Source: Prosthecobacter gellanilyticus
GTDB lineage: Bacteria > Verrucomicrobiota > Verrucomicrobiia > Verrucomicrobiales > Verrucomicrobiaceae
NCBI RefSeq assembly: GCF_007992435.1
Contig: NZ_BKAG01000034.1
Location: 1-64,000 of the forward strand
DNA: 64,000 nucleotides
Reading direction: 5' to 3'
A program made the position numbers and the translations under genes. Below, in pieces: positions 18,166 through 50,047 of the stretch (within the stretch, counting starts at the first letter, position 1; every line of letters begins with the position of its first letter). The notes under the pieces are model-generated. The model saw only the letters and a list, made by a program, of their open reading frames with translations. It searched no databases and had not been told where the DNA came from.

Positions 18166-19173
18166 TTATCTCTTCACCGCATCCCACACCTTCGTGTACT
18201 TGGCCAGGTCAGCACCGAGGTCCTGAATGACCTCGCTCTTCGCGCGGATGGCCTCTGGCATGGTCACCGCGGGATTGCTGAGGAACTCGGGATCCACCTT
18301 CTTCAGCGCGGCGGTGTTGGGGCAGAGGTAGCCGGTCCACTGCATGTTCTCGGCCGCGACCTCGGCATCCAGTAGATGATTGATGAAGGCATGAGCCAGC
18401 GCAGCCTGCGGCGCGGACTTCGGAATGACCATCTCATCACAGCCCATGATGGTCCCTTCCTGCGGAACGATGAGGGTGATCTTCTTGTTCTCCTGCGCCA
18501 CCTGCCAGAGGTCGCCGCTGTAGCCATGGACGAGCGTGAACTCACCTGAGTCGAGACCGGCCTTGTAGCCTTCGTTGTCAAACTTCGCAGCCTGGGCCTT
18601 CCAGCGCAGCAGCACTTCCTGAGCAGCAGCGAGCTGCGCTTCATCACGCGTGTTGATGCTGTGACCGAGTGACTTCAATGCCGCGCCGATGCTTTCGCGC
18701 ATGTCATCCAGAAGCGTCATGCGTTGTTTCACGTCAGGCCGCTCGAAGATCGACCAGGAAGACTCAGGATTGGAGACTTTGTCTGAGCGGCAGGCGAGGA
18801 CGGTGTAGGCCAGCGTGTAAGGCACGCTGTGGCGCATGGATTTGTCCGAGACCTTGTCCAGAACCGCAGGATCGATGTTCGAAAGGTGGGTCAGCTTGCT
18901 GTGATCGAGCTCGGTGATCAGGCCCTCAGTCACCATGAGCTGGATCATGTAACTGGTGGGGAAGATGAGATCGTAGCCCTTGGCTCCCGCCTTGAGCTTG
19001 GCATACATGGACTCGTTCGAGTCAAAGGTGTCGATGACCACCTTGCACTTGTTAGCCTTCTCAAACTTCTCCACCGTCTCCGGGCTGATGTAGTCTGCCC
19101 ACGTGAAGATATGCAGCGTGTCCGCCGCGAACGCAGGAAGAGCCAGGGCCAGAAGGAAGAGGAGGGATCTCAT
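18166..19173 (-). CDS. spermidine/putrescine-binding periplasmic protein, PotD-like
   Basis: 335 residues. Signal peptide MRSLLFLLALALPAFAA; the ATG at 19173 is chosen for it over an upstream one at 19221. The mature start TLHIFTWADYISPETVEKFEK is typical of polyamine-binding proteins, as are YDLIFPTSYMIQLM, SVPYTLAYTVLAC and a C-terminal QDLGADLAKYTKVWD. PotD is normally encoded with potA, potB and potC, none of which is here. It is therefore an orphan binding protein, either for a distant transporter or a sensor. Confidence 0.85.
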   Translation of the reverse strand: MRSLLFLLALALPAFAADTLHIFTWADYISPETVEKFEKANKCKVVIDTFDSNESMYAKLKAGAKGYDLIFPTSYMIQLMVTEGLITELDHSKLTHLSNIDPAVLDKVSDKSMRHSVPYTLAYTVLACRSDKVSNPESSWSIFERPDVKQRMTLLDDMRESIGAALKSLGHSINTRDEAQLAAAQEVLLRWKAQAAKFDNEGYKAGLDSGEFTLVHGYSGDLWQVAQENKKITLIVPQEGTIMGCDEMVIPKSAPQAALAHAFINHLLDAEVAAENMQWTGYLCPNTAALKKVDPEFLSNPAVTMPEAIRAKSEVIQDLGADLAKYTKVWDAVKR

Positions 19174-19344
19174 GCTGAAACCAAGACGCGGATGCTGGCT
19201 GAGTAAAATGCTGAAAATCAAAATGCAGGAGCCTGGCTAGGTGATTGTGGCAGCATGGCATCTGTCTTTCGAGCCGGAGGAATTCAGCAGCACCATGCAG
19301 GTCTCCGCCAAGCAGCCATTAAGTGGGCCTGGACCCTCTGAGTG

Positions 19345-19408
19345 CGAGCCGGAGGCTCGATGGCCGGTAGCCGGTGGTGAAATGAGCGAAGCGAATGAGA
19401 ACCACCGG
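19345..19408 (+). repeat. left outer inverted repeat of RAYT module
   Basis: It carries a small palindrome (CGAGCC-GGA-GGCTCG) followed by an arm CCGGTGGT that pairs with ACCACCGG 22 bases later. It therefore resembles a two-hairpin REP element. It is nearly identical to the reverse complement of 19981-20045. A partial copy of the first palindrome occurs at about 19269-19279. Confidence 0.8.
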
Positions 19409-19437
19409 AAAAGGACAGGTCCACCCCATTTCATTCT

Positions 19438-19462
19438 CGCGTCCCGGCAGGGACGCTGGAAG
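19438..19462 (+). repeat. left inner hairpin repeat of RAYT module
   Basis: GCGTCCC pairs with GGGACGC across GGCA, followed by TGGAAG. The same hairpin with a different 3-nt loop, and the same flank, recurs inverted at 19926-19949 just after the transposase gene. Confidence 0.75.
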
Positions 19463-19470
19463 TTATCCCC

Positions 19471-19917
19471 ATGCCCTCGACCCATACCTCGTTGCACTAC
19501 CATTTCGTCTGGAGCACCAAGAATCGGGAGGATTGGTTTCCGGTGGAAGTGCGTGCCCGAGTACATGAGTTTTTGGGTGGATGCCTTCGAACGGAAGGTG
19601 GTTTTTGTCATGCTGTCGGCGGCATTGGAGATCATGTTCATGTTCTTGTGGGGTTGAAGCCGACACATACTCTGGCGGACGTGCTGCAACGTTTGAAGAG
19701 TGTGTCGTCTCGTTGGGTTCATGAAGAACTGCACATGCCTGAGTTTTCCTGGCAGGAAGGTTACGGCGCATTCACCGTTGGCGCTCGCGACCTTGAGCGT
19801 GCCAGATCCTATGTTCTCAACCAAGAGGAACGGCATCGTTCACAAACGTATCAGGACGAGTATGTGGAGATGCTCAAAATGGGCCTCGTCGAATACGATG
19901 AGCGGTATTTGTGGTGA
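19471..19917 (+). CDS. REP-associated tyrosine transposase (RAYT, IS200/IS605-like Y1 HUH enzyme)
   Basis: 148 residues, normal for the family. The HUH metal-binding motif is GDHVHVLV (His55, His57), and the likely nucleophile is Tyr114 in ARSYVLNQEERH. YHFVWSTKNRED at the N-terminus and SWQEGYGAFTVG before the tyrosine helix are family landmarks. These enzymes cut and join single-stranded DNA at REP-type hairpins, and are usually single-copy domesticated genes. The gene is intact with an ATG start and lies between nested inverted repeats containing hairpins, as expected for its substrates. Confidence 0.93.
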   Translation: MPSTHTSLHYHFVWSTKNREDWFPVEVRARVHEFLGGCLRTEGGFCHAVGGIGDHVHVLVGLKPTHTLADVLQRLKSVSSRWVHEELHMPEFSWQEGYGAFTVGARDLERARSYVLNQEERHRSQTYQDEYVEMLKMGLVEYDERYLW

Positions 19918-19925
19918 TGTCATTC

Positions 19926-19949
19926 CTTCCAGCGTCCCTCTGGGACGCG
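19926..19949 (-). repeat. right inner hairpin repeat of RAYT module
   Basis: Inverted counterpart of 19438-19462: CTTCCA, then GCGTCCC-TCT-GGGACGC. The arms match the left copy exactly and only the loop differs, which fits selection on the stem. Confidence 0.75.
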
Positions 19950-19980
19950 GAGCATGATGTCATGTCATGGGCGCGCGCAT

Positions 19981-20045
19981 CCGGTGGTTCTCATTCGCTT
20001 ACGCTCATTTCACCACCGGCTACCGGCCATCGAGCCTCCGGCTCG
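19981..20045 (-). repeat. right outer inverted repeat of RAYT module
   Basis: Reverse complement of 19345-19408 apart from one extra base in the middle (CGCTTACGCTC against CGCTTCGCTC). Ends in the GAGCC-TCC-GGCTC palindrome. Confidence 0.8.
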
Positions 20046-20095
20046 AAAGCAGGCGTTGGCACCACGAGGTTTTGGCTAACCAATGATTGGTCTAT

Positions 20096-20878
20096 TTAAG
20101 CCTTCTTCCTCGCACTAAACCGCGTGCACACGCCACCACCTTCCACCACGGACGGGAGCTGCTCGGCCTGGCGGCCGCTGGCGATGATGCACTGCACGCC
20201 GCTGTTCACGGCGTCCTGCACAGCGCGGAGCTTGGAGATCATGCCGCCGGTGCCGAGGGCAGTCTTTTCTTCCTGCGCATGATGGATGACCGCATCCACA
20301 TCAGTGACGAGCGGGATGGGGCCTTCCTCGGGGTGCTTCATGTCACGCAGCAGTCCGGGGGCGCTGGTGAGCAGGATGAGGATGTCCGCACCCCAGAGGC
20401 TGGCGATGCGGGAGGAAAGCTTGTCGTTGTCACCAAAGCGCAGTTCCTCGATGGCGACACTGTCGTTCTCATTGATGACGGGCACGATTTGCGGGAACTC
20501 GAGCAGGCGTTCGAGCGTGGCCTTCACACGGTTCGCGCGCTCTTCCTGGGCGAGGTCCTCATGGGTGACCAGAAGCTGCGCCACATGCAGGCCGTGATCA
20601 CGCAGCAGGTTCTCATACGCATGCATGAGGTGGGTTTGACCCACCGCCGCCAGGGCCTGCAGCGTGGTCATGTCCGTGGGGCGCTTCTGCATGTCCAGCG
20701 GCTTCAGGCCGGAGGCCACAGCACCGCTGCTGACCACCACCACGCTGTGCCCCGCCTGCTTCATGAGCGCGACGGCTTCCACCAGCTTGCGGAGCTGCAC
20801 CGGATCAGGCTCGGGCGTCGTGAGCTTGGTCAGGATGCCGGAACCGAATTTAAGGACGATGCGCTGAGGTGTGGACAT
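20096..20878 (-). CDS. proB: glutamate 5-kinase
   Basis: Phosphorylates glutamate to gamma-glutamyl phosphate, the first step of proline synthesis. 260 residues, holding only the amino-acid-kinase domain: RIVLKFGSGILTK at the start, VVVVSSGAVASGLKPLDM, PVINENDSVAIEE, FGDNDKLSSRIASL and a TGGMISKLRAVQDAV phosphate-binding segment. The C-terminal PUA domain of the E. coli enzyme (367 residues) is absent, as in many short bacterial ProB proteins. The ATG at 20878 is chosen over an upstream one (20917). proA is not adjacent. Confidence 0.93.
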   Translation of the reverse strand: MSTPQRIVLKFGSGILTKLTTPEPDPVQLRKLVEAVALMKQAGHSVVVVSSGAVASGLKPLDMQKRPTDMTTLQALAAVGQTHLMHAYENLLRDHGLHVAQLLVTHEDLAQEERANRVKATLERLLEFPQIVPVINENDSVAIEELRFGDNDKLSSRIASLWGADILILLTSAPGLLRDMKHPEEGPIPLVTDVDAVIHHAQEEKTALGTGGMISKLRAVQDAVNSGVQCIIASGRQAEQLPSVVEGGGVCTRFSARKKA

Positions 20879-20975
20879 GAGGGGCTGTGGAGATAGGGCG
20901 GGGGAGGGGAGAGTCAAGAGACTGTGAGCCGTGGACGGTAGGCGGTCGGCAGTGGAGTGAGCAGTTTCATTCCAA

Positions 20976-48018: not shown

Positions 48019-49308
48019 ATGGCCACTTTCCGCACCGTTAAAGGCTTCCGCGACTTCTTCCCCGAAGACTGCGCTCTCCGCAATTACATCTTCGACACCT
48101 GGCGTCAGGTGGCGCGCCGCTATGGCTTCGTGGAATACGAGGCCCCGCTGGTGGAGACCACGGACCTTTATCGCAAAAAAAGCGGGGACGAGATCACCAG
48201 CCAGCTCTTCTGCTTTGAGGACAAGGCCGGCCGCGAAATCTCCCTCCGCCCTGAGGTCACCCCCTCCCTGGCCCGCATGGCCACCACCCGCCAGCGTGAC
48301 TACAAGAAGCCCATGAAGTGGTTTCAGATCGGTTCCTGCTTCCGCTATGAGGAGCCCCAGGAAGGCCGCTCACGAGAGTTCATCCAGTTCAATGCCGACA
48401 TCCTCGGCGATGCCAGCTCCGGCACAGATGCCGAGCTCGTCGCGCTCGCGGTGGACGTCATGCTCGCCTTCGGCATCAAGGCCGAGGACTTTGTCATCCG
48501 CCTGAGCAACCGCCAGATCTGGACCCAGTATCTCACGGAGAAAGCCGTGCCTGAGGAGCACGCCACCACCTTCCTTTCCATCATCGATAAGATCGAGCGC
48601 GCGAAGCCCGAGGACACCGCCGAGAAGCTCTCCAACATCGGCCTCAGCCTCGAAGACGTCCGCGCCTTCATGACCGCAGCGGATGAGAATCACCCCATCT
48701 TCGCCACCCTGCGCGCTGATCTCGAGGCCCGCGGCCTGTGGCAATACGTCCGCATCGATGCCAGCATCGTCCGCGGCCTCGCCTACTACACCGGCACCGT
48801 TTTCGAAGTCTTCGATCTCAAGCACGGCCTGCGCGCCGTCGCCGGCGGCGGCCGCTATGACAAGCTCTGCGCCCTGATGAGCGATGGCAGCGTGGACATG
48901 CCCTCCGCAGGTTTTGCCATGGGAGATGTCGTGCTCGGCATCCTCCTTTCCAAAACCCCCGGCGCCCAGTTCGGCATCACCGACTACCTCAATTCCCAAA
49001 TGGGCGTGGATGCCTACGTCGTCGTGGCTGATGAAGCCCAGCGCGCTCCCGCTCTTGCTGCCGTGCAGGCCCTGCGCGCTGCTGGTGTGCGTGTCGACTT
49101 CGCCATGACCGCCCAAAAGGTCGGCAAGCAGTTCCAGGCCGCTGAGAACGTCAAAGCCCGCTTCGCCCTCGTCTTCGGTGCCGAGTATCCCCAGGTGCAG
49201 ATGAAGAACCTCGTCAGCCGCGAGCAGACCATGGTCGCCGCCGAGGACCTCGCCTCCACCGTCGTCCAGGCCGTGAAGCAACCGTTGGTAGGCAAGCTGA
49301 TCGCTTGA
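48019..49308 (+). CDS. hisS: histidyl-tRNA synthetase
   Basis: Class II aminoacyl-tRNA synthetase, 429 residues. The ATG at 48019 gives MATFRTVKGFRDFFPED, the usual motif-1 entry. Motif 2 is FQIGSCFRYEEPQEGRSREF, the HisRS-specific motif RGLAYYTGTVFEVF is intact, and AGGGRYDKLC precedes motif 3 (SAGFAMGDVVLG). The C-terminal anticodon-binding domain (about 330-429) includes AYVVVADEAQR and FALVFGAEYPQVQMKNL. Confidence 0.96.
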   Translation: MATFRTVKGFRDFFPEDCALRNYIFDTWRQVARRYGFVEYEAPLVETTDLYRKKSGDEITSQLFCFEDKAGREISLRPEVTPSLARMATTRQRDYKKPMKWFQIGSCFRYEEPQEGRSREFIQFNADILGDASSGTDAELVALAVDVMLAFGIKAEDFVIRLSNRQIWTQYLTEKAVPEEHATTFLSIIDKIERAKPEDTAEKLSNIGLSLEDVRAFMTAADENHPIFATLRADLEARGLWQYVRIDASIVRGLAYYTGTVFEVFDLKHGLRAVAGGGRYDKLCALMSDGSVDMPSAGFAMGDVVLGILLSKTPGAQFGITDYLNSQMGVDAYVVVADEAQRAPALAAVQALRAAGVRVDFAMTAQKVGKQFQAAENVKARFALVFGAEYPQVQMKNLVSREQTMVAAEDLASTVVQAVKQPLVGKLIA

Positions 49309-49343
49309 TCTGTTGGTGAGGTCGAAAGGCCTGTCTGGTCGTA

Positions 49344-49365
49344 CCACCCCATTCCGATGGGGTGG
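49344..49365. repeat. palindrome, family member 2
   Basis: CCACCCCATT-CC-GATGGGGTGG, one base different from 43162-43183 and preceded by the same GTA. It sits 36 bases after the hisS stop and may help end transcription between the converging genes. Confidence 0.7.
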
Positions 49366-49402
49366 AGGGAGTCCGGTGTAGTCGCGAATCGATCGAAAAT
49401 TC

Positions 49403-50047
49403 TCACCCTCCCCGATACACACTCACCCAGTCCTTGAAGAAGATCATCTGGCTCTTCAGCCGGCGCTTGCGGAAGATCCCCTGACCTTCGCGATCCGCCT
49501 CCGTTCCTTGCTTGGAGTTAGGCCCCGTGTTGCCTTCGATCGTCAGGATCGCATTCCCCAGATCACGCTCCACGATGCCCGTGTGCCCGATGCGCCAGCG
49601 CCGCTCCTGCTCGATGTAGTGCAGCACGCCAAAGGTGTCCGCAGGCCGCGCCATGTAGCCGCTGTTGGAGGCCCAGTAGTTCCCATACACCATGTCCGAG
49701 GCACGCGCCGTGCGCGGATACAGACTCGGAAAGCCGGACTGAATGCCCACGAAATGCACAAAGGCGGCGCAGTAAGGTAGCTGCCTCCCCTGCAGGCCCA
49801 CGGTCGATAAAATAGCGTCGATGTTCTGCCCGTCATTCTTCCCTGTGGCCTCTTTCCAGCCCACGTAGCGGCTCGCCTCCCACACCACACGACCGCGCAC
49901 CTGATCCATCGTGCTCACCGGATTTTGCATCGTGGCATAAGCCGGCACCTGGTGATCATACGCCGGCTGCATCGGCATGTTCGGCGCGGGTGTCATCGCC
50001 ATCACGGCCAGCGCCAGCACACAGATCACCGCATACGGCCAGTTCAT
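49403..50047 (-). CDS. exported Cys/His hydrolase, probably cell-wall acting
   Basis: 214 residues. N-terminal hydrophobic segment (about 5-22) suits export. Residues about 50-200 resemble NlpC/CHAP-like peptidoglycan hydrolases: VVWEASRYVGWKEATGKND, catalytic Cys93 in LPYCAAFVHFVG, His155 in RIGHTGIVE, and then LTIEGNTGP, the third conserved strand with a polar residue. It ends in RRLKSQMIFFKDWVSVYR. Its ATG overlaps the stop of the membrane-protein gene upstream (ATGA). Similar domains occur in phage lysins, but it could equally be a host enzyme. Confidence 0.75.
   Translation of the reverse strand: MNWPYAVICVLALAVMAMTPAPNMPMQPAYDHQVPAYATMQNPVSTMDQVRGRVVWEASRYVGWKEATGKNDGQNIDAILSTVGLQGRQLPYCAAFVHFVGIQSGFPSLYPRTARASDMVYGNYWASNSGYMARPADTFGVLHYIEQERRWRIGHTGIVERDLGNAILTIEGNTGPNSKQGTEADREGQGIFRKRRLKSQMIFFKDWVSVYRGG

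Follow-up and report, generated by a model that had tools for sequence, protein, structure and literature searches.

Between potD and proB of Prosthecobacter gellanilyticus, a small transposase gene is symmetrically enclosed by inverted hairpin repeats, which raises the question of whether gene and repeats form an element that moves as a whole, a resident enzyme that disperses its repeats, or a chance neighbourhood. The initial annotation of the window, by which we mean the whole 64,000-nucleotide stretch analysed, had described the locus as a RAYT gene within two nested pairs of inverted repeats, and had taken the symmetric enclosure as a departure from the habit of RAYTs; enclosure is, however, the usual RAYT arrangement. 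We consider it probable that the locus is a mobile REPtron-like element, composed of an IS200-like single-strand transposase of subclass 1.2 and its own inverted three-hairpin ends, and that the arms dispersed through the genome are most likely its non-autonomous REP/REPIN-like derivatives.

The features of the element are collected in Table 1. Each arm is about 118 bp long and reads, from outside to inside, H1 (CGAGCCGGAGGCTCG), GTAG, H2, a spacer of about 30 nt, H3 and TGGAAG. The outer repeats are nearly identical, as annotated: a repeat search paired positions 19338-19388 with 20002-20052 in inverted orientation (51 nt, 94% identity) and 19389-19409 with 19980-20000 (21 nt, 100% identity), the two rows being due to one extra loop base. 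The inner hairpins, positioned 14 nt from each end of the transposase gene, likewise keep an identical stem and change the loop (GCGTCCC-GGCA-GGGACGC on the left and GCGTCCC-TCT-GGGACGC on the right, both on the plus strand). The TGGAAG tail, 8 nt ahead of the transposase ATG, could act as a ribosome-binding site. Folding of both arms beats dinucleotide shuffles (z of −2.6 and −4.3). Searches of the window against Rfam and for defence systems with PADLOC gave no match, and a promoter and terminator scan gave nothing convincing at the element.

Table 1. Features of the element and its flanking genes (R1, covariance model of the arm; A1, alignment of arm copies; both as described in the text)
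Feature	Coordinates	Strand	Evidence or remark
Whole element: arm, transposase gene, inverted arm	19345..20045	+	701 bp
Left composite arm, three hairpins	19345..19462	+	R1 match 125.4 bits, top among 78 genomic copies
Left-arm H1 hairpin, CGAGCC-GGA-GGCTCG	19345..19359	+	sequence; stem nearly invariant in A1
GTAG tag, foot of left-arm H2	19367..19370	+	sequence
Left-arm H2, long hairpin CCGGTGGT...ACCACCGG; inner stem variable, covarying	19371..19408	+	A1, covariation
Left-arm H3 hairpin, GCGTCCC-GGCA-GGGACGC	19439..19456	+	sequence, covariation
TGGAAG, conserved left-arm tail	19457..19462	+	sequence, A1
Transposase gene, 148 aa, HUH/Y1	19471..19917	+	Pfam Y1_Tnp (PF01797) 85.9 bits, invariant columns, AlphaFold model
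Right composite arm, inverted	19926..20045	-	R1 match 114.2 bits
Right-arm H3, GCGTCCC-AGA-GGGACGC (plus-strand loop TCT)	19932..19948	-	sequence
Right-arm H2	19981..20019	-	sequence, A1
Right-arm GTAG tag (plus strand: CTAC)	20020..20023	-	sequence
Right-arm H1	20031..20045	-	sequence
Flanking PotD/PotF-like substrate-binding protein gene (potD), outside the element	18166..19173	-	protein-family match; abuts proB in ten congeners
Flanking proB, glutamate 5-kinase, outside the element	20096..20917	-	TIGR01027 268 bits

Although the two nested repeat pairs are real, they are better read as one composite arm per side, with H1 and H2 as the outer repeat and H3 as the inner one, since the same three hairpins recur together elsewhere in the genome. 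In the whole genome (7.65 Mb, 137 contigs), the outer 72 bp of the arm as query found 40 places, and all seven exact GCGTCCC hairpins adjoin a copy of the outer arm. H1, H2 and H3 are all conserved across an alignment of 29 arm places (A1), the basis of the covariation count, and their helices covary, with 53 double-change cells compared with 17 in shuffles and 0-5 when partners were slid. A covariance model of the 117-nt arm (R1), built from this genome alone, retrieved 78 arm copies, including the two in the window, so that the genome-wide search proposed in the initial annotation shows the repeat to be abundant. The 78 copies fall into three related sequence families. They match all 117 model positions and are about 110-130 bp long, shorter ones being rare; H2 and H3 are spaced 28-33 nt apart in 70 of the 71 measurable copies, with a spacer of variable sequence, and the tag is GTAG in 43 copies, TTAG in 15 and ATAG in 14. 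Of the features of the GTAG-REP superfamily, the arms display the GTAG foot of the palindrome and not the size of 20-40 bp. The CGTC-REP class was rejected, as the CGTC of H3 belongs to the base-paired stem and the sequence of H3 differs in other families.

No further arm copy was found in the window, in agreement with the initial annotation (next best E = 0.1, chance level). Hits at 49293-49551 were set aside as chance, there being no inverted repeat at those positions, and a GTTAGG/CCTAAC motif beside the arms was dropped with 28 occurrences in the window against 27 expected. Some copies elsewhere lie at or near contig ends (G000:C7:17-142, C59:42-160 and C47:290-408); the repeat may thus have broken the assembly, and 78 may be too low a count. 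Eight copies and the transposase L039 are clustered within about 13 kb at G000:C42:36000-49600.

Apart from the two arms at the window transposase, 56 copies are single and 20 form ten close pairs, which have gaps of 32-110 bp and are all convergent with H3 inside, like the window arms. According to the initial annotation, many single copies near unrelated genes would mean that the pairing is coincidental clustering of ordinary REPs. Such copies do prevail (56/78), but coincidence does not follow from them, given that 78 copies scattered at random over 7.65 Mb are calculated to yield about 0.1 close pair against the ten seen, all convergent; the calculated chance of all ten sharing one orientation is (1/4)^10. 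The places where a partner would lie beside a single arm mostly hold no degenerate relic. For REPINs the inverted pair is the mobile unit, and ten convergent pairs were seen; most copies, however, are single and lack a partner relic, and mobility here need not reside in the pair. Some single arms of family C flank other transposases. At one congener locus (L290, G033:C6:220914-222293), five arms of the same orientation form a tandem array whose period is about 356 bp and then 193 bp, in contrast to the convergent pairs elsewhere.

The transposase passes the NCBIfam IS200 model (71.9 bits, cut-off 55), which all 33 scanned relatives match as well, and fails the RAYT model NF047646 (24.6 bits, cut-off 80). 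Its motif residues are D54-H55-V-H57, W94-Q95, Y114, Q118 and H122, among which the HUH residues (H55, H57), WQ94-95, Y114 and Q118 do not vary among 33 relatives (alignment A3); HUH and the catalytic tyrosine in a Y1_Tnp fold characterize the IS200/IS605 protein family. The window motif YVLNQEERH (Y114-Q118-R121-H122) is the RH variant of Y---Q--(H/R), which is observed in 114 of 115 intact homologues; 111 homologues have HH and 4 have RH, and Y---NP occurs in none of the 115. An AlphaFold model (pLDDT 91) matches the ISDra2 and IS608 TnpA structures best in the PDB (E about 1e-8 to 1e-7), followed by the RAYT 4er8 (1.7e-4). Judged by these motifs and models, the protein is not a canonical RAYT and carries the signature of TnpA-Y1 subclass 1.2. 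The RAYT label of the initial annotation was thus right in recognizing a Y1 transposase enclosed by inverted hairpins, and wrong as to the family.

No second full copy of this transposase family is present in the genome, the next paralog being only 64% identical; the suggestion that the unit might be a recent copy is therefore not supported, nor is recent activity. This paralog (L032, G000:C12:58123-58392) is not enclosed by arms; next to it, on the downstream side, stands a gene-less convergent arm pair. Five other transposases of the subclass in the same genome (L033, L034, L036, L037 and L038) are flanked by inverted, hairpin-rich repeats that differ widely in sequence. The genome thus contains several arm families, each probably served by an enzyme of its own.

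The proB-potD site was compared with that of related genomes, the second comparison that had been proposed. In ten congeners (L230-L244) the two genes overlap or abut with nothing between, an arrangement that suggests translational coupling, broken in the window by the insertion. In the window 922 bp separate them (19173 / 20096), exceeding the element by about 50 and 170 bp, which blurs the insertion joint and any target duplication; the comparison thus yielded an empty site, though not an exact boundary. The closest congener, G057, has a proB 93% identical and an empty proB-potD site, and carries a homologous element, with a transposase 88% identical, at another locus behind another gene. 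The local alignment of window positions 19345-20047 to this element (L258:1424-2136) extends exactly as far as the arms do, and similarity in the flanks is no higher than in shuffles; the orthologue of the G057 site in P. gellanilyticus has no element behind the gene. Because the G057 copy stands at another locus and is homologous only as far as the arms reach, and because the window site is empty in G057, the whole module appears to have changed place, as the initial annotation had surmised. Many closely similar transposase pairs also have unrelated flanks, the homology mostly ending near the arms, and in the genome itself another family is present as three complete elements (L039-L041; 84-87% identical DNA) whose flanks are unrelated. 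Orthologous sites were found as well (L218/L219/L221), and the flank comparison was therefore able to give either answer.

The association of arms and enzyme extends over the transposase clade. For 116 subclass 1.2 loci, drawn from named genomes (Verrucomicrobiota, Planctomycetota, Acidobacteriota, Bacteroidota, Methylobacter and others), from this genome (11) and otherwise from relatives, the 350-nt upstream flank was compared with the reverse-complemented 350-nt downstream flank. At 83 of these loci the inverted flanks, often rich in hairpins, scored 40 or more, a level reached by 3.7% of mismatched loci and lying above the 95th percentile of shuffle maxima (29); at the other 33, inverted flanks were below detection in this 350-nt comparison. 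Seven subclass 1.1 IS200 control loci scored 16-22 and showed no inverted flanks. A subclass 1.2 locus on a Bernardetia plasmid scored 67, and R1 detects both convergent arms around the Methylobacter homologue. When folded, the arms of other loci often exhibit the same layout with TAG ahead of H2, and at the feet of the hairpins TAG by far outnumbers any other trinucleotide (81 of 158 arms, compared with 20 for the next independent one). Subclass 1.2 thus has long inverted arms in many phyla, contrary to its published description, in which it has no REP, generally no terminal hairpins, and a distribution mostly in Cyanobacteria and Bacteroidetes (Quentin et al. 2018, PMC6006769). Among transposase pairs at least 90% identical, the upstream arms are common to 24 of 24, whereas a control stretch 680-900 nt upstream is shared in only 17%; the arms co-diverge with the transposase protein. 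The transposase also occurs in records titled Akkermansia muciniphila and Klebsiella pneumoniae MAGs (L144, L147, L176), names that look doubtful for environmental MAGs. A literature search of mostly open-access papers found no earlier description of these arms, which is weak evidence of novelty.

Within the genus, arms were found in 44 of the 48 genomes searched, with 0-75 copies. The median number of arms is 18-21 in congeners that carry a transposase of at least 49% identity and 2 in those that do not (Mann-Whitney p about 2e-5, n = 34, a test that ignores kinship and assembly quality); the association persists when the comparison is confined to genomes of 5.5 Mb or more (p = 0.0016). G022 is an exception, with 20 arms but no transposase reaching 49% identity.

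The element combines traits of several known systems. Like the REPtrons of RAYT/TnpA-REP proteins (NF047646; Nunvar 2010, PMC2817692; class 2 of Quentin 2018), it has an HUH/Y1 gene enclosed by inverted hairpins with a GTAG foot, repeats dispersed as singles and inverted pairs, and a single transposase for each repeat family; inverted REPs headed by GT(A/G)G on both sides and abundant cognate repeats (78 here) are the class 2 traits that it displays. It differs from them in the Y---Q in place of Y---NP and a score below the family cut-off, in a 118-nt three-hairpin composite in place of a 20-40-nt palindrome, and in a complete module that occupies different loci in sister species. With TnpA of IS200/IS605 subclass 1.1 (IS608, ISDra2) it shares fold, HUH and tyrosine motifs, length and the IS200 model, but it has no tnpB, gene-less arms are dispersed, the ends are long inverted three-hairpin structures rather than small non-inverted subterminal hairpins, and the next copy is 64% identical where those elements have several near-identical copies per genome. 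Subclass 1.2 as published (PMC6006769) agrees in the Y---Q--HH-type motif, WQ, DHVH, the 148 aa, low copy number and low identity between copies in one genome, and disagrees in the three-hairpin arms seen here in Verrucomicrobiota, Planctomycetota, Acidobacteriota, Gammaproteobacteria and others. Gene-less convergent repeat pairs with a short spacer recall REPINs/BIMEs (Bertels & Rainey 2011, PMC3116915), from which the three hairpins per arm and the excess of single arms over pairs set this system apart. TIRtrons (Di Nocera 2013, PMC3733652) likewise have long inverted repeats flanking a Y1 transposase, dispersed copies and sometimes a degenerate GTAG unit joined to another stem-loop; TIRYT proteins, however, are mostly of subclass 2.1 with a C-terminal HTH, and here the GTAG hairpin is intact and the three-hairpin layout fixed.

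That ordinary dispersed REPs landed by chance on either side of an unrelated transposase gene is barely credible: the preponderance of single copies near unrelated genes would agree with it, but the excess of convergent pairs, the recurrence of the enclosure at most clade loci and the co-divergence of arms and transposase contradict it, and the arm-transposase association across loci already refutes it. Only slightly less far-fetched is an ordinary subclass 1.1 IS200 that uses the inner hairpins as its ends and landed within unrelated repeats already present there as an inverted pair. The protein is closest in fold and sequence to IS200/IS608/ISDra2 TnpA and the inner hairpins lie close to either gene end, as such an element would have it; yet H3 is part of a conserved 117-nt unit with H1 and H2 at 76 further places without the gene, the subclass 1.1 controls are without such arms, and the G057 homology reaches the outer edge of H1.

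The strongest competing account invokes recombination between arm pairs dispersed in the genome. A domesticated, immobile transposase would spread only the arms in trans, and the gene itself would owe its new place to homologous recombination or gene conversion involving such convergent pairs, or else to horizontal transfer. We regard this as unlikely, though it would accommodate the single copy of this family per genome, the convergent arm pairs as possible landing sites, and the end of homology at the arm edges, which is expected here too. Against it, the proB-potD site of the ten congeners is without any arm pair, so that insertion of a pair and later conversion would be needed; the three whole-element copies of another family and the very similar transposases in unrelated flanks of many genomes also tell against it. 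Quite improbable as a full account, though not exclusive of the mobile element, is that the dispersed arms are now regulatory or structural (transcription terminators, mRNA stabilizers or nucleoid sites), kept by selection, with mobility in the past. By a crude codon-usage gene call, 77 of the 78 copies are intergenic and neighbouring genes are convergent or tandem at 64 of 72 (33 + 31); G-U pairs are present in the arm stems, and REPs elsewhere play such roles (PMC3733652). The wide swings in copy number between congeners (0 to 75), which go with the transposase, argue the other way.

For the mobile element, the most likely route is single-strand transposition, by analogy with TnpA-REP, whose recognition and choice of cleavage site at CT involve the GTAG foot (PMC8266576). 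The hairpins would fold on single-stranded DNA, such as the lagging-strand template, and a transposase dimer is predicted to recognize H2 through its TAG/GTAG foot, with H1 as the outer and H3 as the inner border at the fixed 30-nt spacing. Y114 would then cut beside the arms, and the DNA enclosed by two convergent arms would be excised or copied before being joined to a new site. Gene-less arm pairs may be acted on in trans by this enzyme, in a REPIN-like manner, as probably are single arms, giving rise to the dispersed copies.

The element bears on how REPs spread and on whether their transposases are domesticated or still mobile. The published classification sets subclass 1.2 outside the REP systems, and here GTAG-tagged arms accompany it in many phyla. 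With dispersed copies that track the enzyme and a module standing at different loci in sister species, it provides a natural test case for the passage from insertion sequence to REP system, in which an element of 701 bp is short enough for direct assay. It is conceivable, and we propose it only tentatively, that subclass 1.2 transposases define a third kind of single-strand mobile element, widespread and placed between IS200 and RAYT/REP, in which three-hairpin arms of fixed geometry serve both as termini of a module that transposes as a whole and as REP-like units dispersed independently. If so, this third kind would be a living link from insertion sequences to REP systems that have been domesticated.
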